Source of the DNA: Gammaproteobacteria bacterium
GTDB lineage: Bacteria > Pseudomonadota > Gammaproteobacteria > Pseudomonadales > Pseudohongiellaceae
Assembly (NCBI GenBank): GCA_029244985.1
Contig: JAQWQD010000024.1
Coordinates: forward strand, 1 to 64,000
Length of the DNA stretch: 64,000 nucleotides
Reading direction: 5' to 3'
The first letter of the stretch is position 1, and the number at the start of each line of letters is the position of its first letter. Under the pieces are notes generated by a model. The model worked only from the letters and a program-made list of their open reading frames with translations. It was not told the origin of the DNA and made no database searches. A program made the translations under genes and the position numbers. This document shows positions 5,259-59,233 of this stretch, in pieces.

Positions 5259-6452
5259 ATGCAACGCAATAAAAGCTCTTTGATAACCGCCACTCTAGCC
5301 CTTTCATTGCTCGTGGTACTTGGGGTTGCCCAAAACTATTTGCAGAACTCAGTCACCGCTGCCAGCAATGGAAGAATGGTGCCTCATTTTGAAGTAGATC
5401 CGTTCTGGCCCCAGCCCTTGCCTAATAAATGGATACTGGGAAGCGCTATTGGCGTGGCTGTAGATGCACGTGATCATGTTTACATTGTTCACCGAAATGA
5501 TGATGCTAATTTTGCCACACAGGAAATCGGTATCGACAATGAAATAGCAGATTGCTGCACGGCAGCCCCACCGATTCTGGAATTCGATGCCGATGGCGCA
5601 CTTGTTAATGCATGGGGCGGCCCTGGGCAAGGCTATACCTGGCCTGCCTCAAATCATGGCATTGAAATCGCACCCAACGGCGACGTTTGGATAGGTGGCA
5701 ATGGTGGTGGTGATTCCCATGTCCTGGTATTTACCCGCGACGGCCAGTTTGTGCGTGAAATCGGCTTACCCGGTGAGCCTATTGATAGCAACAGCACAAC
5801 TCATTTCAGCCGCGTCGCTGAAATCGCAATAGAACCGGATGCAAACGAGGCCTATTTTGCCGATGGCTATGGCAATAAGCGGGTGGCTGTCGTAGATGTT
5901 GCCACAGGAGCCTTCAAACGATATTGGGGGGCTTACGGTAACCGCCCCTCAGATGACCGGGTCAAATATACTCCCGGGGAAACATTGCCACAGCAATTCG
6001 TCGGTCCCGTCCATTGCGCCGAGCCGTCAAAAGACGGACTCATATACGTATGTGATAGGGGTGCGGACAGGATCCAGGTATTTCGGCCGGATGGTACCTA
6101 TGTTAAGGAAGCACAAGTCGCCCCGATGACTGTTGGTGCTGGCGCCACTTGGGACATTGCTTTTTCCCAAGACGACGACCAAGAGTTTATTTACGTAGCT
6201 GACGGCTCCAATATGAAAGTCCATGTTGTGCACCGAGACACACTGGAGGTCATGTATGTCATTGGTGAAGGTGGCCGGCAACCCGGATTGTTCTACGGCA
6301 CTCATAGCATTGTCACCGACACTCAGGGAAACTTTTATACGACCGAAACCTATGAGGGAAAACGTGTCCAGAAGTTCGTCTACCGGGGCTTGAGACCACT
6401 TGAACAAATGCAATCTGGCCCCGCCTGGCCAGCTGGCACTTTGATTGAATAA
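5259..6452 (+). CDS. Exported NHL propeller, peptidyl-alpha-hydroxyglycine amidating lyase (PAL)-like
   Basis: After an N-terminal signal/anchor the protein is a six-bladed NHL beta-propeller. Compared with the lyase half of animal PAM it keeps the counterparts of the active-site residues: Arg79 in VHR, His133 in NHGIEI, Tyr204 in DGYGNKR, His252 in PVHC followed by DRGADRIQ, and His349 in GTHSI. In PAL the three histidines bind zinc and the Arg/Tyr pair cleaves hydroxyglycine to amide and glyoxylate. This is the most complete of the three PAL-like genes in the window. Two adjacent Cys (CC, about residue 100) lie in a loop. The true substrate is unknown; other six-bladed propellers (lactonases, gluconolactonases) are alternatives. 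It is a single-gene unit facing the receptor group. Confidence 0.75.
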   Translation: MQRNKSSLITATLALSLLVVLGVAQNYLQNSVTAASNGRMVPHFEVDPFWPQPLPNKWILGSAIGVAVDARDHVYIVHRNDDANFATQEIGIDNEIADCCTAAPPILEFDADGALVNAWGGPGQGYTWPASNHGIEIAPNGDVWIGGNGGGDSHVLVFTRDGQFVREIGLPGEPIDSNSTTHFSRVAEIAIEPDANEAYFADGYGNKRVAVVDVATGAFKRYWGAYGNRPSDDRVKYTPGETLPQQFVGPVHCAEPSKDGLIYVCDRGADRIQVFRPDGTYVKEAQVAPMTVGAGATWDIAFSQDDDQEFIYVADGSNMKVHVVHRDTLEVMYVIGEGGRQPGLFYGTHSIVTDTQGNFYTTETYEGKRVQKFVYRGLRPLEQMQSGPAWPAGTLIE

Positions 6453-21113: not shown

Positions 21114-22094
21114 ATGAACTTTCTTCCTCTTCCGTTAAGTTTTTTATTGATACTAATTCCTAATCTCGGTCTCGCTGCCGATAATTACACAGTGCCTAAA
21201 ACTGAATGGGGTTTGCCGGACTTACAAGGCGTATGGAATTTTTCTTCCAATACACCAATGCAACGCCCCTCCCAATTTGGTACTCGACAATATCTTACTG
21301 ATGAAGAAGTTGCCGAGCGACTATCTAGATCTGCTGCGAACGATGCAGCGTCTGACGCAGCCATTCCAGGAACCGGTGTTGATGAAGCCTATAACGATTT
21401 TTGGATTGAAAGCGCTGGTCTTGGTCTCGCCCAACAAACTTCTCTCATAATATATCCTGAGAACGGTCGCTTACCCTCATTGCAAGATGATGCTTATCGA
21501 ACTGCATTTGGCAGACCACCAGAGCGACCTGTGCGCAGCGCATTAGGGGCGGGGTTTGCAACTGATGGGCCGGAGGATCGCCCACTTTCCGATCGCTGTA
21601 TTCTTGGATTTAACGCAGGACCTCCCGTTACGCCCAGTTTTTACAACAACAATCTTCAGATCGTACAGAACAGGGATCACTTAGTCATAATCACAGAAAT
21701 GGTTCATGACGCTCGAATCGTGCCGCTTAATGATAGTCCAACTGCGCCGCGAGAGATCGGCTTCTGGACTGGCGACTCACGTGGTTATTGGGAAGGAGAT
21801 ACCCTCGTTGTAGAAACTCAAAACTTCAACGGACTAACTAATACATTTTCATTGCTAGGATCTTCTGAGAATAAACACTTAACTGAAAAGTTTACTCGTG
21901 TTGCACACGATCAAATCAATTATGAGTTTACTGTTGATGATGCTTCAACATTTACTGACAAAATTGTTGGCTTGATTCCAATTTTCAAAGTGGCAGGCCA
22001 AGTTTACGAATACGCATGCCATGAAGGTAACTATGGGATGGTAAATATTTTGCGCGGCGCCCGGGTAGCGGAACAATCGACTGACCCTAATTAG
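21114..22094 (+). CDS. Conserved exported protein of unknown function (DLQGVW family)
   Basis: A signal peptide (to LAAD) is followed by a single domain with PKTEWGLPDLQGVWNF, RLPSLQDDA, SDRCILGFNAGPPVTP, YNNNLQIVQ, RGYWEGDTLVVETQNF and a C-terminal YEYACHEGNYGMVNIL. I recognise the pattern from Acidobacteria and marine Gammaproteobacteria, where it is usually 'hypothetical'. A paralogue lies at 39.5-40.5 kb with the same motifs in order. The conserved Cys, His and Glu near the end (ACHEGNYG) could bind a metal or substrate. The beta-rich sequence suggests a lipocalin- or propeller-like secreted binding protein; that is a guess. It is not in an operon. Confidence 0.75.
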   Translation: MNFLPLPLSFLLILIPNLGLAADNYTVPKTEWGLPDLQGVWNFSSNTPMQRPSQFGTRQYLTDEEVAERLSRSAANDAASDAAIPGTGVDEAYNDFWIESAGLGLAQQTSLIIYPENGRLPSLQDDAYRTAFGRPPERPVRSALGAGFATDGPEDRPLSDRCILGFNAGPPVTPSFYNNNLQIVQNRDHLVIITEMVHDARIVPLNDSPTAPREIGFWTGDSRGYWEGDTLVVETQNFNGLTNTFSLLGSSENKHLTEKFTRVAHDQINYEFTVDDASTFTDKIVGLIPIFKVAGQVYEYACHEGNYGMVNILRGARVAEQSTDPN

Positions 22095-27429: not shown

Positions 27430-28473
27430 TTAATTCAGGACGTGGCGTTCCAGCATGCGGCGTCGAACCACAGCTCCGTATACATTGCCTTCATGGTCAA
27501 CGCCCACACCCTCAGCCCCAGAATGATCATCTCGAAGTGGCTCCATGTCTTCGATAAATACATCGACACTGCCATCAATCGCCGAACCGATGCGAATACC
27601 CTTCATTATTCCCATCAATTCTTTAGCACCAGTGTCAGGACCAGACTCAGAGTCAGCAACGTAGATTCGGTCATCAGGTGTGATGAATATGCCACTGGGT
27701 CTACCAAATTGACGCCACTCATCAATAAACTCCCCTTCCTGGGTGAATAACTGAATGCGATTGTTTTCACGGTCACCGACAAACAGTCGGCCGCGAGAAT
27801 CCATCGCGATGGTATGGGGTTCGCTTATGAGGCCTTGAGCTGAACCCTTGCTGCCCCATTCTTTTATATAGTCACCGCTGGCGCTGTAATGAACGACGCG
27901 ATTATTGAGACCTCCACGATGACTGTCAGTCACAAAAATATCGCCATCCTTCGGATCAACTACCACATCATTTGGAGAGTGCAGCAAATTGGGACCAGAT
28001 CCTCCCCTGCCACTTTGCCCGAGAGTCATAAGTATTTCGCCCTCGGGACTAAACTTAGTAACCTGATGCCCAATTTCTTCATTACCTCTAGCATCAGCTA
28101 CCCAGAGGTTACCTTCATGATCGACAGTGGCACCGTGGGGGAAAACAAACAAACCCGCACCGAAAGCCATTTGCAGGTTACCCTCGTAGTCGTATTTCAG
28201 AATGGGTGGCTCAGGCCGGTTTTCACAAGAGTTTTCAAAGCAGCGGTGAATTACGTAAATGAACTGCCCATTTGGCGAAGGTTCAACCGCGGTTACAGCT
28301 GCCCAAGCTCCAGTGCCCTCCGGTAATTCTCCCCAGTCTCGTTGCGTGACATATGGTCGTGGTAAGTCATTACGCACACCGTGCACTGCAGACTCAATAG
28401 ATTGAGCAACCGCAGTCAGCTTGAAAGCCATTACTGCAAGTACCGTTGGAAAAACCGTTAGTAAATTCATCAA
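27430..28473 (-). CDS. Exported NHL propeller, PAL-like but with active-site losses
   Basis: A signal peptide (to AVAQ) leads into a six-bladed propeller resembling PAL: HR at residues 76-77, FPHGATVD (His113), EPHTIAMD (His220) and DRENNRIQ, which is nearly identical to the DRENGRIQ of animal PAL. The Tyr motif is replaced (DSHRGGLNNR), and the place of the third zinc histidine appears to read AEGVGVD, so full lyase activity is doubtful. It may be a binding or modified lyase. It is divergent from the PHM-like haem/copper gene across 205 bases, an arrangement suggesting shared control. Other NHL-type lactonases are an alternative. Confidence 0.75.
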   Translation of the reverse strand: MMNLLTVFPTVLAVMAFKLTAVAQSIESAVHGVRNDLPRPYVTQRDWGELPEGTGAWAAVTAVEPSPNGQFIYVIHRCFENSCENRPEPPILKYDYEGNLQMAFGAGLFVFPHGATVDHEGNLWVADARGNEEIGHQVTKFSPEGEILMTLGQSGRGGSGPNLLHSPNDVVVDPKDGDIFVTDSHRGGLNNRVVHYSASGDYIKEWGSKGSAQGLISEPHTIAMDSRGRLFVGDRENNRIQLFTQEGEFIDEWRQFGRPSGIFITPDDRIYVADSESGPDTGAKELMGIMKGIRIGSAIDGSVDVFIEDMEPLRDDHSGAEGVGVDHEGNVYGAVVRRRMLERHVLN

Positions 28474-28678: not shown

Positions 28679-30031
28679 ATGAATAATATCAGCAGGCTTT
28701 TTAACTCAATTGCCCTTATTTCGATACCCGCATTCGTTCAGGCACAGGCTGCCGAGCAGCAGATCACCTACAATGGCGAAGCAGGCCGTATTATTAATGA
28801 GAACTGCGTAGTATGCCATCGAGAAGGTGGCATAGGTCCAATGCAATTTGAGTCCTATGATCAAATTCGGCCCTGGGCACCCTTGATTCAGCTAAAAGTG
28901 GCTAATCGAGAAATGCCACCCTATGCCTATGATCACGGCATTGGTATTCAAAACCTGCAAGGCGATTGGCGTCTAGAACAAGAAGAGATTGACACTCTTG
29001 TAGCCTGGGTTAATCAAGGCGCTCCTTTGGGTGATCCCGATTCGCCCCTAGCTGCACCACAATTAAACGACCCTGATGCGTGGAATTTTGTTAGCGAATT
29101 AGGGGAACCAGATTTAGTAATTCCTTCAGTTGCTATAGATATTCCTGCGAATGGCAATGATTTATGGAGCACCCACTATGTGCCGAGCGGTATATCAAGC
29201 GATCGCTGCATAAAAGCAGTACAAGTTAAACCTCGAGGCGATGCAAAGTCAGTTGTTCATCATGCAAACTCAACTATAGACGTATATAACGATGACGGTG
29301 AATTAGAGCGTTATAGCATGCTTACTGAATATGCGATGGGCAAATGGGGTGAGTTAGTACCCGAAGATGTTTGTCGTACGATTCCAACTAATTCCATGGT
29401 GCGCTGGAGCATTCATATGTTTCCTGGCGGTCTTGGGAGCATAGCACCAGGTACTATCATAGAAGATAACGTGGTAGAAATTGGCCTATGGCTACACCCT
29501 GAAGGTTATGAAGATAATGTTGGTTATACCCAAGACTTAAAGCAGTACAACATTCAATACGAAAGAGCAGAGCGAGACTTGCGTTTAGTTATTCCACCTC
29601 ATGGCTATACGATGACCCAGGGTTTTCACTCTTTTGATCACCCGGTTCGCATAGACAGCTTTCAACCCCATGGTCATTTGCGCATGCGCTCAGCATCGTT
29701 TGAAATTTTCTACCCTAAAACTGGTCAAACAGAAGAAATAAGCCAAATTTCTAATTGGAGTGCAACCTGGCACCATAGTCATATTTATGAACCGGACGTC
29801 GCTCCTTTGTTACCAACTGGGGCAGTGCTCGTACTAAAGCAATGGTACGACAATACTGCGGACAATCCGAATAACCCAGACCCGGATCAATGGGTGTTCG
29901 GGGGCAGTAGAACGGCTGATGAAATGACCCATGCCTGGATAGCAGTAACCCACTTAGATGAAGAAGGCTATGAAAAATTAGCTGCCGAGCGTAAAGAAAA
30001 AGAAGCTCGCTCATTTGCTGGTAACGATTAA
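28679..30031 (+). CDS. Cytochrome c domain fused to PHM-like type II copper monooxygenase
   Basis: A signal peptide is followed by a mono-haem domain (CVVCH, residues 43-47, with Met79 in REMPP as a likely axial ligand). From about 160 on there are two beta domains with motifs matching the copper ligands of peptidylglycine alpha-hydroxylating monooxygenase: His194-His195 (VVHHAN) and His273 (WLHPEG) for CuH, and His331/His333 (QPHGHL) and Met416 (ADEM) for CuM. The phrase LVLKQWYDNTADNP is also typical of bacterial relatives. A fused haem would supply electrons directly instead of ascorbate. It is first in a three-gene plus-strand set and divergent from a PAL-like gene. The substrate is unknown. 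Confidence 0.75.
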   Translation: MNNISRLFNSIALISIPAFVQAQAAEQQITYNGEAGRIINENCVVCHREGGIGPMQFESYDQIRPWAPLIQLKVANREMPPYAYDHGIGIQNLQGDWRLEQEEIDTLVAWVNQGAPLGDPDSPLAAPQLNDPDAWNFVSELGEPDLVIPSVAIDIPANGNDLWSTHYVPSGISSDRCIKAVQVKPRGDAKSVVHHANSTIDVYNDDGELERYSMLTEYAMGKWGELVPEDVCRTIPTNSMVRWSIHMFPGGLGSIAPGTIIEDNVVEIGLWLHPEGYEDNVGYTQDLKQYNIQYERAERDLRLVIPPHGYTMTQGFHSFDHPVRIDSFQPHGHLRMRSASFEIFYPKTGQTEEISQISNWSATWHHSHIYEPDVAPLLPTGAVLVLKQWYDNTADNPNNPDPDQWVFGGSRTADEMTHAWIAVTHLDEEGYEKLAAERKEKEARSFAGND

Positions 30032-30154: not shown

Positions 30155-31552
30155 ATGAAACTCAGCATTAAGAAAACCCTTTCTTTTATTATCGGACTAC
30201 TTGCTTTTCCCATGGCCGGCTTTGGTCAGAGCGATAGTGTGACGTTCCACAAAGACATTGAACCAATCTTGCAGCGTAGTTGCCAAAACTGTCATCGGGT
30301 TGGTGGTGGCGGTCCTATGCCATTAGTGACCTATGATGAAGTCGCTCCCTTCGCCGGTTTAATCGAGTACAAGACAGGACTGCGAGACCGAGCTGGCGCC
30401 ATGCCACCATGGTACGTAGAAAAAAATATCGGCATTCAGAGCTTTAAAAACGATAACTCACTTAGTGATGAGGATCTCGCCGCCATATCTACTTGGGCTA
30501 GGAGCGGAACCCCACAGGGAGATCCTTCAGATGCCCCAGAGCCTCTGATTTTTGATGACAGCATCAAGTGGAAAGCCGGCACACCAGACCTAGTCGTCAA
30601 ACTACCTGAAATTACCAAGTTGGCCGGAACTCCTGACTGGTGGGGCGAGCTGGAAACCGTCCCAACCGGGCTGACCGAAGACCGTTATGTAAAGTCTGTG
30701 GAGGTGGTTGAGGTTAACGATGTTGACATGACCCAACTTGCCGGTACCGTTGGCGGGCGCTACATATTCCATCACATGCTCTGGTTTACCGCAAAATTGG
30801 ATGAGGAAGGAAATCCGCAGCGCGGAATGTTCAGTAATCCATGGCCAGTGCATGAAGTCGGACGTAACGCCGATATCTTCGACGATAATACAGGTCGTCT
30901 TTTAGAAGCAGGATCAGCGATAGTGTCTGACTCGATTCATTTGCACTCCAACGGCAGAGATACCACTGGTCACCTGGAGATTGGTTTTACTTTCCATGAT
31001 CGGGACTTCGAACCCAAGTATAGAGACACGATAAATTTTACCGGCAATGGAGTTGATATAAGTATAGTGCCAAATCAGACAGATCAAGAACTTCATGCCT
31101 ACAGCATTCTTGAAGCGCATACTAAGATTGTCTCTTTCGAACCTCACCTGCATGCACCCGGAACTCGTATGTGTCTGGAAGCAATCTGGGGTCATCAAGT
31201 CGAGACACTGTCCTGTGTAGGATACGATCACAACTGGGTGCGTACCTATCAATTTGAGGATTCTGCGGCGCCGCTATTACCTAAAGGCACTATCCTTCAC
31301 ATCACTGGTTATATGAATAATACGGAGACTAATATCAACATCCCAGACCCTCGCAATTGGCAGGGATCTGGTAATCGTTCCACACAGAACATGTTTCTCG
31401 ATCTCGGCATTCGTGTATCCATGAATCAGGAGCAATTCCTTGAAGCTATGGAAGAGAGACAAGAAGTTCTTAATTTGGGCCCGAACGATCATGTTATTGG
31501 ATGCCCGCTCTGCACGGCGACTTTGGTTTCACTCGTCGAAGCTGAAGATTAG
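30155..31552 (+). CDS. Second cytochrome c/PHM-like copper protein
   Basis: The architecture matches the upstream gene: signal peptide (to FGQ), CQNCH haem site at 43-47 with MPP later, then copper motifs FHHMLWF (His206-His207, almost the HHMLLF of animal PHM), HLHSNG (His262/264), EPHLHAPG (His331/333) and TQNM (Met413). It diverges strongly from its neighbour elsewhere, including a C-terminal CPLC motif that might bind metal or form a disulphide. The two proteins may be a heterodimer or act on different substrates. GGAG precedes the ATG, and the next gene follows after 11 bases. Confidence 0.75.
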   Translation: MKLSIKKTLSFIIGLLAFPMAGFGQSDSVTFHKDIEPILQRSCQNCHRVGGGGPMPLVTYDEVAPFAGLIEYKTGLRDRAGAMPPWYVEKNIGIQSFKNDNSLSDEDLAAISTWARSGTPQGDPSDAPEPLIFDDSIKWKAGTPDLVVKLPEITKLAGTPDWWGELETVPTGLTEDRYVKSVEVVEVNDVDMTQLAGTVGGRYIFHHMLWFTAKLDEEGNPQRGMFSNPWPVHEVGRNADIFDDNTGRLLEAGSAIVSDSIHLHSNGRDTTGHLEIGFTFHDRDFEPKYRDTINFTGNGVDISIVPNQTDQELHAYSILEAHTKIVSFEPHLHAPGTRMCLEAIWGHQVETLSCVGYDHNWVRTYQFEDSAAPLLPKGTILHITGYMNNTETNINIPDPRNWQGSGNRSTQNMFLDLGIRVSMNQEQFLEAMEERQEVLNLGPNDHVIGCPLCTATLVSLVEAED

Positions 31553-31563
31553 TTGGAGAAAAA

Positions 31564-32496
31564 ATGAAATTATTAGCTGAAAAAATTAGAAGCAGGTGTA
31601 ACTCTCTGTTACTTGCAACGCTATTGCTTTTCTCGCCTGCCGTGCTTACTGCAGAAACTTTACAATATGGTGCACCTGTCTACCCTTCCTTTGAAGGCTG
31701 GCGCCCCAATCCAGACGGATCATTCAATCTCATGTTCGGATACATGAATGAAAATTGGGAAGAGCAACCATTAGTGGAAGTTGGAGACAATAATTTTTTC
31801 TCTCCCGGCGAAGCTGACCGAGGTCAACCGACAAATTTCATGCCCCGCCGAAATCGTTTCACTTTCGAGGTTAAAGTACCTTCCGATTGGGGTGATCGTG
31901 AGCTGGTTTGGAATTTAAATATCAATGGCGTGGAAGCCAAGGCCTATGGAACCCTGAAGCCTGATTACCTGGTTGATAACATGATAATCGCTTCTGAAAC
32001 TGGGTCTCTAGGAATTGGAGTCAGCAGCCCTGAATCCAGGTCGAATACCCCTCCAGTACTCACATTTCAGGGTGATGATGCGCGCACGGCTAAGGTAGGT
32101 GAGGCAATAACCCTTCGGACTCACCTTGAAGATGATGGCTTACCGAGATCAAGGCTTAGATCTTCTAGGTCTGAGAGTGACCTGCATCGGGCCATGTTTC
32201 GCGCTCCTCAAAAACCCACTGTAAGTAAATTAAATGCCCTATTCCTGAGTTGGAATATCTACCGCGGAGAAGGCAGGGTGACGTTCGATCCTCCACAAAC
32301 AAAGGTATGGGAAGACACCCGCGTATCGGCTAACTCCCCCTGGGGTGGACTGTGGCTGCCGCCAGTAATCCCTGATGATGGCATAATTGAAGTAACTGCG
32401 ACTTTTGATGAGCCTGGCATCTATACTCTCTGGGGACGGGCAGATGACGGTGGGCTCTATGCCGACACCTATTTGACTGTCACTGTCACTCCTTGA
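31564..32496 (+). CDS. Conserved secreted protein linked to the PHM-like pair
   Basis: A signal peptide (to LTAE) is followed by beta-rich sequence with the block VYPSFEGWRPNPDGSFNLMFGYMNENWEE, then DRGQPTNFMPRRNRFTFEVKVP and a C-terminal domain closing EVTATFDEPGIYTLWGRADDGG. I have seen this block in secreted proteins near similar cytochromes but know of no assigned function. Two Ig-like domains seem likely. Its tight spacing (11 bases) behind the second haem/copper gene and a GGAG site suggest it is made with them as an accessory or substrate-binding subunit. A strong terminator follows. Confidence 0.7.
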   Translation: MKLLAEKIRSRCNSLLLATLLLFSPAVLTAETLQYGAPVYPSFEGWRPNPDGSFNLMFGYMNENWEEQPLVEVGDNNFFSPGEADRGQPTNFMPRRNRFTFEVKVPSDWGDRELVWNLNINGVEAKAYGTLKPDYLVDNMIIASETGSLGIGVSSPESRSNTPPVLTFQGDDARTAKVGEAITLRTHLEDDGLPRSRLRSSRSESDLHRAMFRAPQKPTVSKLNALFLSWNIYRGEGRVTFDPPQTKVWEDTRVSANSPWGGLWLPPVIPDDGIIEVTATFDEPGIYTLWGRADDGGLYADTYLTVTVTP

Positions 32497-38481: not shown

Positions 38482-39444
38482 TTAATGGCGGTGGATAAAC
38501 TTGTGTAGATCAGGCTTTATTGTGTCAGCGACATAGATTACACCGCCAGGCGCAAGAGTCATGTAATGGGCCTCACCAAATTCACCGAGCTTTTTCCCAG
38601 GTTCACCAGTTGCCGCAACAACTTTGCCATTTTTATCCAGCTTCAAAATCTCCCCTGCAAACCCACTCACCATCCACAAGGTGCCTTCTTCATCGAAGTG
38701 TAATCCGCAGGGCCAGCCCTTATAATGCCATTCCTTAAGGTAAGCTCCTTCATCGTCAAATATTTGAATGCGGCGATTCTGGCGATCTGCAACATAAATC
38801 AGCCCCTCACCGTCTACAACGATTGAATGAGGGGTATCGAATTGACCAGGCCCTGTGCCCGACCCACCCCATTTCTTCATAAAACGACCCATTCGATCAT
38901 ATTTTAATAATTGTGGTGTACCTCGGCCATGACCAACCAAGATAAAAACTTCACCTTCATCATTTATGGTTAAATCTGTCGGCTCAAACAGTAATCCATC
39001 TTCTGGTTCTCCAGCTTCGCCCATTCTGCCAATAGTAAGCAGCACTTCGCCATCGAGATTCATTTTGCGTACGGTGTGTCCATTAACGTCGGTGGTCCAT
39101 ATGTTGCCTTGAGGATCAAGACGCATACCATGTGGCCGCACGTAATCCCCCTGCCCCCAGGTCCGCAGTAGCCGACCCCGCGGATCGAACTCCATTAGAG
39201 GGTTTGGACCACGATTGAAAAGAATCAAATGATTGTCTTTAGTCCATACAACACTGGAGGATGCTCCTAACTCGACACCTGAAGGAATTTTTAACCCATG
39301 CTGCACTGGGACATATCCCAGATCTGGAGCAAGCTCCATTTGCAAAGGATCTGGACCTTCCAGCACCTGAGCTCGCGCACTCAAGGAAAAACCCAATGCA
39401 ATAGTTGTGCTGAGGGAAATTATCTTGAATTGCTTAAACTTCAT
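38482..39444 (-). CDS. Exported NHL propeller, PAL-like with three zinc histidines
   Basis: A signal peptide (to SARAQ) leads into a six-bladed propeller. Counterparts of PAL residues: Arg78 (FNRGP), His105 (RPHGMRLD), His206 (TPHSIVVD) followed by DRQNRRIQIF, and His293 (EAHYMTL). The Tyr motif has become VGHGRG, with His172 in its place. The metal site therefore looks intact while the acid/base residue differs. The ATG at 39444 has GGAG upstream; the track's longer form adds an implausible N-terminus. It is between the DLQGVW-protein gene (25 bases) and the cytochrome (12 bases), all minus strand. Confidence 0.8.
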   Translation of the reverse strand: MKFKQFKIISLSTTIALGFSLSARAQVLEGPDPLQMELAPDLGYVPVQHGLKIPSGVELGASSSVVWTKDNHLILFNRGPNPLMEFDPRGRLLRTWGQGDYVRPHGMRLDPQGNIWTTDVNGHTVRKMNLDGEVLLTIGRMGEAGEPEDGLLFEPTDLTINDEGEVFILVGHGRGTPQLLKYDRMGRFMKKWGGSGTGPGQFDTPHSIVVDGEGLIYVADRQNRRIQIFDDEGAYLKEWHYKGWPCGLHFDEEGTLWMVSGFAGEILKLDKNGKVVAATGEPGKKLGEFGEAHYMTLAPGGVIYVADTIKPDLHKFIHRH

Positions 39445-39469
39445 ACTTAGTTCTCCAAACCAATGCGTT

Positions 39470-40456
39470 CTAATCGTCGTCTTTCGGCGTACCGTTTCCA
39501 TTCATTCCCATAGATTCATAACGTCGCCATCCCGCAAGAATACCAACCATTCCATGATTACCTTCATGACAGGCGTATTCATAGACGGGATCTTCAATTT
39601 GACGTAAGGGGAATTTCGCAGACCAAGGCTGATCCCAAGAAAGCGGATCTTCGATAGTGAAATCATATTCCAGAGTGTTAGCACCAATACGCCGAATGCG
39701 TTCCTCCAACACCATTTTTTCGGAAGCACCGCGGCCATTGTCATGATAGTAAAAATGCTGGGTTTTAATGACCAATGTGTCACCTTCAAACCGGGCAATG
39801 GCGTCACCATCCCATTTCAACACTTTTGTTTGATGTTCATCATCGAAGCGAATGATGCGCGCTCGATGGATCATCTCACTCAAAATCATGATGTGATCTT
39901 CGGTTTGCACGATTTGAATATTGTTATTGTAAGCGCCTGGCACTATAGGTGGTCCTGCACCTCCACTCATCAAACACCTGTCTGCCAAAGTTCGACCTTC
40001 AGGACCAATGCTAAGGCGTCTATTTTCGGCCCTCACCTGAGCCCTTTTCCTGCCCATTTCGTTTAAGGCAGGCAAGCGACCGTTTGGCGGATCATAAATC
40101 AGTGACGTTCTGCGATCGGCGACGGTGTTCTCACCACGCTCATACCAGAAATTATTGTAGGAAATTACCCCTGGCGGATAGCCAGCACCACCAACAGAAT
40201 CGATGATGAGGTCCCGATTCTGACGACGAAGTTCGAATTCTTCCCATTCTACTGCCTGCTCGGGGGTGAGTGTTTCCAAGTGCTCTAACTCTCTGGGGCG
40301 GTTCAGCGGAGTAATGGTGCGATAGGTGTAGACACCCTGCAGATCTGGATGCCCAAATTCGGTAAGAGGAATATCAGATGATTGGGCGGACACTGCAGGA
40401 ACAGCTATCAGGCCGCCAAGGACTATGCTTAAAAGAAAGATCACTTTGGTGCTCAT
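39470..40456 (-). CDS. Conserved exported protein, DLQGVW family (second copy)
   Basis: This is a paralogue of the 21.1 kb gene. It has a signal peptide (to VSAQ), then LTEFGHPDLQGVYTYRTITPLNRP, RRTSLIYDPPNGRLPALNEMG, ADRCLMSGGAGPPIVPGAYNNNIQIVQ, ARFEGDTLVIKTQHF and the closing YEYACHEGNHGMVGILAGWR. The shared ACHEGNxGM ending and the CxxxxxAGPPxxP block are the best candidates for functional residues. GGAGG six bases ahead of the ATG at 40456 fixes the start. It opens the four-gene run that continues with PAL-like propeller, cytochrome c and DUF2784. Confidence 0.75.
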   Translation of the reverse strand: MSTKVIFLLSIVLGGLIAVPAVSAQSSDIPLTEFGHPDLQGVYTYRTITPLNRPRELEHLETLTPEQAVEWEEFELRRQNRDLIIDSVGGAGYPPGVISYNNFWYERGENTVADRRTSLIYDPPNGRLPALNEMGRKRAQVRAENRRLSIGPEGRTLADRCLMSGGAGPPIVPGAYNNNIQIVQTEDHIMILSEMIHRARIIRFDDEHQTKVLKWDGDAIARFEGDTLVIKTQHFYYHDNGRGASEKMVLEERIRRIGANTLEYDFTIEDPLSWDQPWSAKFPLRQIEDPVYEYACHEGNHGMVGILAGWRRYESMGMNGNGTPKDDD

Positions 40457-40585
40457 TGAATCCTCCGTGCTCTGGTTATTGTTAATCGGAAGAGAACTTG
40501 AGCCTATCAAATTACGCTACTGACATAATTTTTCAAGTGAAATATAAGTCACAGGTGGCTTAGGTAACACTATACCAAAGCTGTT

Positions 40586-55233: not shown

Positions 55234-57774
55234 ATGAAACCAATCAGAAAGAATTGGGTCAGGTCAGGCCTAGCCTTTTCAGGGCTGGTTGTGGCGTTGT
55301 TGACAATTTCAAATTCAATTCCACCAATCTCGCAAAAGGCTGCCGCCCAAGATCAATTTAATGCCGCGGATATGCAGCGAGTTGTGAATCAGTATTGTCT
55401 CGCCTGCCACAATGATGCTCTCGCCACTTCAGGGCTTTCATTACAAACTGTCGATTTCACCAAAATCGCAAACCATGCCGAAACTTTAGAAAAAGTAGTA
55501 AAAAAATTACGCGCACACATGATGCCGCCTGCTGGCATGCCACGGCCGGACTTCGATTCTTATAGGGTTATGGCCGAATGGCTGGAAAATGAATTAGATG
55601 ATGCCTGGACAGCAAACCCAAACCCTGGACGAGTGACGCCCGTGCATCGAATGAATCGTTACGAGTACAACAATTCCATTAATGGGTTGCTGGGTCTCGA
55701 TGTCGATGTGATGGAAATGTTGCCAGGCGATCCTACTGCCGATGGTAGTTTTGACAACATTGCCTCAGCCCTACCTTTTTCGACAGCTCATATGGAACGC
55801 TATATGTCAGTGGCGAGGCAAGTGACGCGACTTGCAACTGGACTACCACCTTTAAGCCCAGTTGTTTCAACTTATGAAATTCCACTTTACATGAGTCAAG
55901 ACTGGCGCCAGACCGAAGACATGCCATTCGGTTCCCGTGGCGGTATTTCAGTCACTCACAATTTTCCAGTCGATGGGGAATACACCCTAAAAATTGATTT
56001 GGAAACCAACTACCAAGACTACATTAAGGGCTTAGGTTGGGCGCAAATTCTCGACTTACGTTTAGATGGTCGACTACTGGAAAGATTTACTATTGGCGGT
56101 GATGCTCCAGGCACACCAACTCCTCTAAGTTTCAGTGGTACTGGAGAACCCGGCAGCGTGGATTGGGAGCAGTATATGTTGTATCAAGCCACCGAAGACT
56201 TGGAAATTACTGTGCCCGTGACCTCTGGACCACATTCCATAACCGCGTCCTATGTGCGGCAACAAGTTATTGAAGAAGAAATTCCACAGCCACGGCAGGG
56301 AGGCAGGCTTCCAGCAAACTCCGAAGCCTACCTTACTTATCAAAAAGTCCATTCCATAGAAGTGGGTGGCCCTTACACGAACAATGCGAGCTTCGGTGAA
56401 TCACCAAGCCGCCAACTAATATTCTCCTGCTATCCCGAACAACTAACAGAAGAGGCTGCCTGCGCAGAAGAAATTGTTTCGCGCATGGCCCGCCGAGCTT
56501 ATCGACGAGCGATTACTGATGCCGACACGAATTTACTGGTCGAATTCTTCAATCGAGGTCGAGAGCAAGGCGGTAGTTTTGATGCTGGTATCCAATTCGC
56601 TCTTGAGTTCATTCTCAGCGATCCAGACTTTCTAATTCGTTCTTACCAGGCTCCAGAAAATTTGGCTGCTGGTGAAATTTTCGAACTTAATGATTTAGAG
56701 CTTGCTTCACGCCTGTCATTCTTTCTATGGAGTAGCGCGCCAGATGAAGAATTGCTGGAACTTGCTGAAGCCGGCAATCTTTCTAATTCTCAAGTTTATG
56801 AGCAGCAAGCACATCGCATGCTAGACGATGAACGCGGAATTAATGCATTGGTAGAAGATTTTGCGGCACAGTGGCTAAACCTGCGACGTTTGGAAGAAGT
56901 AAATATAAACACCGTGTTGTTTCCACAATACGACGTGAGCTTGATGGAAGCCTTCGAAACCGAAACCGAAATGTTTGTTGGAGAAACATTGAAGACCGAT
57001 GCCAGTGTCATCGAACTACTCAATGCGGATTACACTTTCGTTAATGAACGTCTCGCCCGGCATTACGGAGTTGAAGATGTTTATGGCAGCCGGTTCAGGA
57101 AAGCGGCCTTGCCAAATACGACTCAAAGAGGCGGTATTTTAGCCCACGGCGCTCTGCTCACAGTGACATCTTATCCCGGCAGAACCTCACCAGTTCTTCG
57201 TGGCAAATGGTTACTGGATAATCTGCTAGGTACGCCGCCGCCCCCACCGCCGCCAAATGTGCCTATTCTTCCAGAGGCGGAAGCAGGTGAAATTCCAGCA
57301 TCTATTCGCGAGCGGCTGGCACAACATCGGGAAGATCCCGTATGCGCTTCCTGTCATGTGGTAATTGACCCACTAGGGTTCGCCCTGGAGAACTTTGATG
57401 TTATAGGAGCCTGGCGCGAATTTGATGAAGCAGGCAATCCTGTTGATCCCAATGGAAACTACCCTGGCGGTGTTGAATTTGCAGGATTTTCAGATTTGAG
57501 AGATTGGATGATGGATCGACCGGATCGCTTCGCCCATACCCTGACAGAAAAATTGATGACCTATGCCTTAGGCAGGCGTGTGGAATACTATGATCAACCT
57601 ATTATTCGAGAAATTGTAAGAAATTCAGCGGAACAGAATTACAGCTGGTCTTCCATCGTTCTGGGCATTGTGAGTAGCCCTGCATTCAAATCCAGCATGG
57701 GGCCCGTGCAGGTGGCAGGAAATGAGGAGAACAATGGTGAAGCTGAAACAATTGCAGCGGCAACTAGGCTTTAA
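55234..57774 (+). CDS. DUF1592-type multidomain cytochrome-like protein
   Basis: After a signal sequence the protein has a planctomycete-type haem motif CLACH (about residue 57), MMPPAGMPRP, then the run of DUF1587/1592/1588/1585-type domains: RVTPVHRMNRYEYNNSINGLLGLD, LASRLSFFLWSSAPDEELLELA, YTFVNERLARHYGVEDV, YPGRTSPVLRGKWLLDNLLGT with PPPPPPPNVP, then CASCHVVIDPLGFALENFD and the C-terminal YALGRRVEYYD. It thus has two CxxCH sites. The family is thought to act in periplasmic breakdown of complex organic matter, but its reaction is not known. It heads a plus-strand set with DUF1552, its usual partner. Confidence 0.88.
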   Translation: MKPIRKNWVRSGLAFSGLVVALLTISNSIPPISQKAAAQDQFNAADMQRVVNQYCLACHNDALATSGLSLQTVDFTKIANHAETLEKVVKKLRAHMMPPAGMPRPDFDSYRVMAEWLENELDDAWTANPNPGRVTPVHRMNRYEYNNSINGLLGLDVDVMEMLPGDPTADGSFDNIASALPFSTAHMERYMSVARQVTRLATGLPPLSPVVSTYEIPLYMSQDWRQTEDMPFGSRGGISVTHNFPVDGEYTLKIDLETNYQDYIKGLGWAQILDLRLDGRLLERFTIGGDAPGTPTPLSFSGTGEPGSVDWEQYMLYQATEDLEITVPVTSGPHSITASYVRQQVIEEEIPQPRQGGRLPANSEAYLTYQKVHSIEVGGPYTNNASFGESPSRQLIFSCYPEQLTEEAACAEEIVSRMARRAYRRAITDADTNLLVEFFNRGREQGGSFDAGIQFALEFILSDPDFLIRSYQAPENLAAGEIFELNDLELASRLSFFLWSSAPDEELLELAEAGNLSNSQVYEQQAHRMLDDERGINALVEDFAAQWLNLRRLEEVNINTVLFPQYDVSLMEAFETETEMFVGETLKTDASVIELLNADYTFVNERLARHYGVEDVYGSRFRKAALPNTTQRGGILAHGALLTVTSYPGRTSPVLRGKWLLDNLLGTPPPPPPPNVPILPEAEAGEIPASIRERLAQHREDPVCASCHVVIDPLGFALENFDVIGAWREFDEAGNPVDPNGNYPGGVEFAGFSDLRDWMMDRPDRFAHTLTEKLMTYALGRRVEYYDQPIIREIVRNSAEQNYSWSSIVLGIVSSPAFKSSMGPVQVAGNEENNGEAETIAAATRL

Positions 57775-57889
57775 GGCGGTAAATCCTGATTTTCAGGCAT
57801 TTACCATGTAACATTTAATGGTATGCACTGCGTACGAGCCGTTTTTAAAAATGGCACCTAAAAGTTATACCTACTAAGAGGTAGCGATA

Positions 57890-59233
57890 ATGAAGGCGAA
57901 ACAGAACAAGATTACTAAAGCAGTAAACATTCATACTGGGAAAGCGTTATCACGCCGTGCTGTTCTCAAAGGTGTCGGCGCCGCATTTGCCCTACCCATG
58001 CTGGATGCAATGACACCTGCTTTTGCCAATGCACCTAGCCCGGTTCAGCGTTTCCAAACGGTTTATATTCCCAATGGCATGGCCATGCAGTATTGGTCAC
58101 CGACCACGACCGGTTCTAACTACGAATTGACACCAATACTCCAACCGCTCGCCAACTACAAAAACAAAATGAGAGTAATTTCCGGATTAAAAGCCAACTG
58201 GAATATCGCACATGCCGGTGCTGGCGGCTCCTTTCTTACAGGAGTAACACAGGGTGGAAAAACCGAAGTAGAAATTTTGGCTGACGTTTCAATTGATCAA
58301 CTTCTAGCAAATGAACTTGGCAAAGAGACACAGCTTTCTTCTCTCGAACTTTCAATGGATGCCCCTGCTCTCGCTGGAGCCTGCACCGTTAACCTTAGCT
58401 GTGTCTATACCCATACACTTTCGTGGCGCGGCAAGACGGAACCACTGCCTACAGAACATAATCCACGCTCTCTCTTCGAACGCTTATTTGGCGACAGTGG
58501 CACCACAGAAAAACATGCTCGGGAAATTCGCTTACGCCAGCAATCTAGCATTCTCGATGCGGTGCTAGAAAAACTTACTAGCCTGGAAAGTCAGCTGGGG
58601 TACGAAGACCGTCATCTAGTCGATAGCTACACCGAATCAGTGCGCAATATTGAACGACGAATTCAAAAAGCCGAAGAACAAATTGACATGGATCTTCCTG
58701 AGATTGATCAGCCCGCTGGCGTTCCGCCTGTGTTTGAAGATCACATGGAAATTATGCAGGACCTGCAAGTGCTCGCCTTACAAACTGATTTAACCCGAGT
58801 CATAACATTTATGATGAGCAAAGAACAAAGCCCAAGGCCTTACCCGCAAATAGGCGTACCCGATGCTCATCACCCGCTCTCTCATCATAATAACAACCCA
58901 ATGTTGATAGAGCGCATGTCAAAGATTAACACCTATCACACCACGCTGTTCTCCAACTATCTGGATAAATTGGCAGCAATTCCAGACGGCGACGGTTCTT
59001 TGCTAGATAACATGACCATCCTCTACGGTGGCGGTCTATCAAATAGTACCATTCACTCCGGCGACAATCTGCCCATACTCTTAGTCGGTGGGGGCGCAGG
59101 TTGGTTAAAAGGTGGGGAGCATAAGCATTATGGGAATACACCGACTATGGCCGACCTGCATCTAAGTCTCTTAGATAAGTTTGGCGTTAAGATAGATCAA
59201 ATGGGTGGAAGTTCTGGTCCAATTACGCTTTAG
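57890..59233 (+). CDS. DUF1552 protein with Tat signal
   Basis: The Tat signal (SRRAVLKGVGAAFALPMLDAM) shows export of a folded protein. The body carries the DUF1552 pattern: FQTVYIPNGMAMQYWSP, LKANWNIAHAGAGGSFLTG, SSLELSMDAPALAG, HARE-type helices, IGVPDAHHPLSHHNNN, and GGGLSNSTIHSGDNLPILLVGGGAG near the end. DUF1552 and DUF1592 genes are typically adjacent, mainly in Planctomycetes, Acidobacteria and some Gammaproteobacteria. The HH- and DH-rich centre suggests metal binding and the fold may relate to DUF1501 sulfatase-like proteins; the activity is unknown. AGAGG precedes the ATG. Confidence 0.88.
   Translation: MKAKQNKITKAVNIHTGKALSRRAVLKGVGAAFALPMLDAMTPAFANAPSPVQRFQTVYIPNGMAMQYWSPTTTGSNYELTPILQPLANYKNKMRVISGLKANWNIAHAGAGGSFLTGVTQGGKTEVEILADVSIDQLLANELGKETQLSSLELSMDAPALAGACTVNLSCVYTHTLSWRGKTEPLPTEHNPRSLFERLFGDSGTTEKHAREIRLRQQSSILDAVLEKLTSLESQLGYEDRHLVDSYTESVRNIERRIQKAEEQIDMDLPEIDQPAGVPPVFEDHMEIMQDLQVLALQTDLTRVITFMMSKEQSPRPYPQIGVPDAHHPLSHHNNNPMLIERMSKINTYHTTLFSNYLDKLAAIPDGDGSLLDNMTILYGGGLSNSTIHSGDNLPILLVGGGAGWLKGGEHKHYGNTPTMADLHLSLLDKFGVKIDQMGGSSGPITL

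Follow-up and report, generated by a model that had tools for sequence, protein, structure and literature searches.

In animals, PAL ends C-terminal peptide amidation by splitting the hydroxyglycine made by PHM. This two-step PHM/PAL pathway is known mainly from animals and algae, in which PHM depends on ascorbate. The locus described here raises the question of whether a bacterial gene resembling PAL encodes a lyase of the same type and, if so, whether that lyase acts together with PHM-like enzymes. The gene lies in a 64-kb stretch of DNA, hereafter the window, from the 3.2-Mb genome of a marine OM182/Pseudohongiella-like gammaproteobacterium. A sequence-only reading of the window had described the open reading frame (ORF) at 5259-6452 as a propeller retaining the complete active site of PAL, and had taken the presence of PHM-like genes in the region as a hint of amidation in a bacterium.

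The target ORF encodes a predicted PAL-like propeller

We judged the ORF to be real; it belongs to a well-conserved family with 109 distinct members. The gene and the codons of its putative active-site residues are as follows.

5259..6452, + strand: PAL-like NHL-type six-bladed beta-propeller, 397 aa, with an N-terminal export signal or anchor (helix 5-29)
5493..5495, + strand: Arg79, counterpart of PAL Arg533 (alignment)
5655..5657, + strand: His133, counterpart of PAL zinc ligand His585 (alignment)
5868..5870, + strand: Tyr204 (in DGYGNKR), counterpart of PAL catalytic Tyr654 (alignment, family conservation)
6012..6014, + strand: His252, counterpart of PAL zinc ligand His690, followed by the invariant Cys253 (alignment, family conservation)
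6057..6059, + strand: Arg267 (in a CDR motif), counterpart of PAL Arg706 (alignment)
6303..6305, + strand: His349, counterpart of PAL zinc ligand His786 (alignment, family conservation)

A hydrophobic N-terminal helix precedes the propeller in the predicted protein, which AlphaFold2 modeled with a pLDDT of 82.9 and a pTM of 0.81. When this model was compared with PDB structures using Foldseek, rat PAL (3fvz) ranked first (E value, 4.7e-17; TM-score, 0.63/0.75; approximately 21% identity), with other NHL propellers scoring close by TM-score. The comparison with PAL made from the sequence therefore holds for the predicted fold as well, in that a PAL-type site sits in a PAL-type fold. In a sequence search of the PDB, TRIM-type NHL domains ranked above PAL through repeat matches, and we set sequence rank alone aside. 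A PHROGs search returned no match. We also considered and rejected an identity as ScyF, for which the NCBIfam match (56.5 bits) fell far below the family cut-off of 350.

All six PAL-type active-site residues have counterparts in the target

After checking the letters of rat PAL against 3fvz and 5wm0, we aligned it with the target using MAFFT L-INS-i. PAL residues R533, H585, Y654, H690, R706, and H786, which comprise its zinc ligands, Tyr base, and Arg pair, fell on R79, H133, Y204, H252, R267, and H349 of the target, respectively. The residues named in the sequence-only reading are all present in the ORF, and five of its six assignments agree with this alignment; the exception is Arg271, since the counterpart of PAL Arg706 is Arg267, four residues earlier. 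Both of these arginines are invariant in the target family. Among the 109 distinct members, H133, Y204, R267, and H349 are kept in every one, H252 in 108 (the remaining sequence has an X), and R79 in 106 (the other three rows are truncated), such that all six residues are invariant wherever the residue was read. About one-third of the alignment columns are equally conserved, so conservation of the six residues is by itself no proof of function. Given that the target and PAL share only about 21% identity, however, a match at six of six active-site positions is well beyond chance.

The positions of these residues in the model are consistent with a single site. His133, His252, and His349 lie at the start of the innermost strands in blades 2, 4, and 6 (E132-137, E251-256, and E348-353), and R79, Y204, and R267 come immediately after the second strands in blades 1, 3, and 4 (E74-78, E197-202, and E262-266). 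Judged by strand register only, the model thus places all six at a single end of the channel, rather than scattering them among separate pockets.

Other features of PAL have been replaced. The position of PAL Met784 is occupied by Gly347 in the target and by Gly, Ala, or Ser in the family, and that of the calcium ligand Asp787 by Ser350 in the target and Ser in the family; both positions also vary in other bacterial relatives. The four cysteines that form the two disulfides of rat PAL are likewise replaced, and the target family has cysteines of its own that are invariant or nearly so (C99/C100 and C253/C265). In blade 4, the invariant Cys253 and Cys265 lie on adjacent strands, where a disulfide between them would be possible. 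In a phylogenetic tree, rat PAL sits on a long branch, weakly grouped with L010/L015 and apart from the target clade.

Most other NHL propellers of the target genome have R-H-H-H-R-E at the six positions, which makes the Tyr and the third His the specific marks of a PAL-type site. Two related propellers lie in the window.

27430..28473, - strand: NHL propeller oriented divergently to the first PHM-like gene; the six positions read R-H-H-H-R-E (His for Tyr654, Glu for His786)
38482..39501, - strand: NHL propeller with R-H-H-H-R-H at the six positions (His for Tyr654)

The R-H-H-H-R-E propellers form a large set in the genome (27430-28473 and L005-L020), one of them 464 bp from a PHM-like gene, and their residues may represent a second type of metal site. 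What the analysis shows is a predicted fold, the residues, their conservation, and gene linkage (described below); the target is most likely a periplasmic alpha-hydroxyglycine-type lyase.

PHM-like monooxygenases occur in the window and throughout the genome

The following genes of the window bear on a possible partnership with PHM.

28679..30031, + strand: PHM-like monooxygenase with an N-terminal c-type heme motif and Gln/Trp at the positions of PHM Arg240/Tyr318
30155..31552, + strand: second PHM-like monooxygenase with a c-type heme motif and Glu/Leu at the positions of PHM Arg240/Tyr318
31564..32496, + strand: exported protein, relatives of which follow PHM-like genes adjoining PAL-like genes in L064, L065, L068, L069, and L078

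Besides these two, PHM-like genes are found at about 20 further places in the genome. Their assignment to PHM draws on three results. One copy passes the Pfam cut-off for Cu2_monoox_C (PF03712). In an hhalign comparison (E value, 3.7e-6, uncalibrated) with rat PHM, the letters of which were checked, the invariant copper ligands HH, H, HxH, and M fall on H107, H108, H172, H242, H244, and M314. Lastly, when one PHM-like domain was modeled (pLDDT, 70.4), its 31 best Foldseek matches in the PDB were PHM and DBH structures. Pfam PF01082 gave no match, and an hmmsearch of PDB sequences with the PHM-like profile yielded nothing useful. A CxxCH heme motif lies ahead of the PHM domain in 134 of 138 PHM-like proteins.

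PHM Arg240 and Tyr318, the anchors of the substrate carboxylate, correspond to a pair of positions that co-vary in the PHM-like family, with R/Y in 57 proteins, G/F in 31, Q/W in 9, and E/L in 7. The normalized mutual information of this pair ranks 26th of 36,315 column pairs, partly due to kinship. These four main classes suggest distinct substrate groups. The R/Y type is found in the copies at the C20 locus of the same genome, and the Q/W and E/L types in the window. Lacking Arg240 and Tyr318, the two window enzymes are unlikely to hydroxylate peptidyl-glycine, which weakens the hint of amidation drawn from their presence.

Several other genes of the window were noted. A PvdQ-type acylase (617-2917) lies 2.3 kb from the PAL-like gene, and a distant PvdQ-like gene occurs near some sister loci. 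Two exported proteins without a Pfam match (21114-22094 and 39470-40510) have relatives that recur beside PAL-like and NHL genes. The region 55234-59233 encodes a large protein in which a CxxCH motif lies close to the start; next come an HXXSHH (DUF1552) gene and then an ankyrin-repeat protein.

PAL-like and PHM-like genes are linked mainly at sister loci

The PHM-like genes reported for this region are indeed there, but the nearest is 22 kb from the target, which is a dispersed copy. Within the target's own ortholog group a PHM-like gene is nearby in only 1 of 14 loci, and the neighbors are variable. At sister loci, by contrast, the linkage is real and stronger than in the window: a PHM-like gene lies no more than 8 kb from the PAL copy in 48 of 65. 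The two genes are 335 to 360 bp apart on the same strand in L064, L065, and L068, and near relatives (71%) of the window's second PHM-like gene lie 1.6 to 4.0 kb from the PAL copy in L069 and L078. Apart from the target, the genome has two close PAL copies (71% and 66% identical), which form a tandem pair at C20:2167-4670. Two R/Y-type PHM-like genes accompany them, the first at a distance of 2.4 kb with a HupE/UreJ-type gene in between, and this arrangement is conserved through the window's family. The C20 locus as a whole (L128:2152-10115) comprises two PAL-like genes, one HupE-type gene, and two PHM-like genes of redoxin-cytochrome c architecture that retain Arg240/Tyr318, and it is a better candidate for a bacterial PAM locus than the window itself.

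Among 146 sampled genomes of the order, PAL-like and PHM-like genes are both present in all five from the window's family and adjacent in four; in the fifth (G276), the contig ends at the PAL copy. Adjacency recurs in this family in at least three different arrangements, some of them operon-like. For NHL propellers overall, clustering with PHM-like genes in the genome was not significant (P = 0.053). We consider pairing with PHM-like monooxygenases to be well supported for the sister PAL copies and only possible for the target copy.

Relatives elsewhere and alternative roles

A full PAL site is not special to the target genome. The same six residues occur in copies from Methylobacterium, Skermanella, Priestia, and Bradyrhizobium. 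In the sample of the phylum Proteobacteria, 17 other genomes have a single PAL-family copy but, at the threshold used, no PHM-like match; we inspected five of them, and these keep R-H-Y-H-R-H in unrelated gene contexts. Likewise, no PHM is annotated near the Methylobacterium and Skermanella plasmid copies. The lyase thus seems not to need a PHM partner in these organisms, and the sequences of such lone relatives suggest that its chemistry is older or wider than the pairing with PHM. These relatives, which count against the amidation hint, raise the possibility that the target works without a partner and that its substrate is a different carbinolamide or a ureidoglycolate-like compound; the PHM-like neighborhood in this family would then be incidental or a later addition. 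The variable neighbors of the target orthologs fit this explanation, but it does not account for the repeated, partly operon-like adjacency within the window's family, and we regard it as possible but rather doubtful.

A HupE/UreJ-type membrane protein also adjoins PAL-like genes across classes (L135:10399-11745, on a Skermanella plasmid, and L128:4921-6312). NHL propellers are often binding modules, and HupE-type genes adjoin PAL-like genes in most sister loci and also in Skermanella; the propeller might therefore serve not as a lyase but as a scaffold or metal-binding protein, perhaps handling metal together with the membrane protein. Mere metal binding would not require the invariant Tyr204 and two arginines, however, and this role appears unlikely. 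An ordinary lactonase/gluconolactonase-type propeller is highly improbable despite weak Pfam matches (Lactonase, 23.1 bits with the cut-off at 21.7; SGL, below cut-off), because PAL tops the fold matches, no lactonase or gluconolactonase is among the best 50, and the family never varies at the Tyr and third His that are specific to PAL.

A proposed role in oxidative removal of glyoxylate

Of the readings considered, a PAL-type lyase fits the protein best. With moderate confidence, we propose that the target is an exported, metal-dependent enzyme of this type, that copies of its family act on the products of neighboring heme-fused PHM-like enzymes, and that the role is catabolic. For the target, we infer zinc, lyase activity, pairing with PHM, the substrate, and the catabolic role as parts of the following scheme. 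The three inner-strand histidines of blades 2, 4, and 6 would hold zinc at one end of the channel. Arg79 and Arg267 would bind the carboxylate of an alpha-hydroxyglycine-type substrate, and Tyr204 would serve as the base. Splitting of the carbinol C-N (or C-O) bond would then yield glyoxylate and an amide (or an amine or alcohol). In the OM182/Pseudohongiella-type family, lyase copies would take the products of adjacent cytochrome c-fused dicopper PHM-like monooxygenases, making the pair a split, heme-coupled analogue of animal PAM through which glycine-ended molecules could lose a two-carbon glyoxylate unit oxidatively.

Catabolic removal of glyoxylate from N-acylglycines or glycolate ethers seems at least as likely as peptide amidation, in view of the many paralogs, the nearby PvdQ-type acylase, TonB receptors, and PQQ dehydrogenases. 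The expansion and variety of the PAL-like lyase family seem to favor a role in nutrient breakdown over one in the hormone-style maturation of peptides. More tentatively, OM182/Pseudohongiella bacteria, which are oligotrophic marine gammaproteobacteria, may possess a periplasmic PAM pathway in which a fused cytochrome c replaces ascorbate as the electron source of the copper hydroxylase, a separate PAL-type lyase forms glyoxylate and amides from glycine-ended peptides or N-acylglycines, and the PHM-like enzymes have diversified into several substrate classes. If our proposals are correct, a conserved bacterial locus with both enzymes, in which a heme domain possibly stands in for ascorbate, would be relevant to how PAM originated, would supply bacterial enzymes with which amidated peptides could be produced, and would reveal a glyoxylate-releasing reaction in common ocean bacteria.

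Comparison with known systems

The lyase family has already been given a name in NCBI annotation. The literature searched yielded no paper that describes PHM and PAL paired in a bacterium, or a locus combining heme-fused PHM-like and PAL genes. MdgL catalyzes a reaction similar to that of PAL and is stated to share no sequence homology with it (PMC12508155). The ScyF/ScyD/ScyE proteins of scytonemin clusters are NHL propellers like the target, to which they are linked by a weak NCBIfam match. Priestia and Bradyrhizobium genes of the NCBI "amidating lyase family" have the same six residues as the target but are only 25 to 27% identical to it, and no PHM-like gene is annotated near them; closer relatives, from Methylobacterium (48%) and Skermanella (38%), are named hypothetical.

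The bacterial PHM-like proteins share their copper ligands and fold with the PHM/dopamine beta-hydroxylase family. Unlike those enzymes, they have an N-terminal cytochrome c motif, to which the C20 type adds a redoxin-like domain, and several classes of residues at the Arg240/Tyr318 positions. Animal PAL (rat PAM residues 498-820, 3fvz) and the target have a six-bladed propeller and all six active-site residues in common, whereas the target lacks Met784, Asp787, and both disulfides, has cysteines of its own, is only about 21% identical, and is encoded by a separate gene rather than fused to PHM.
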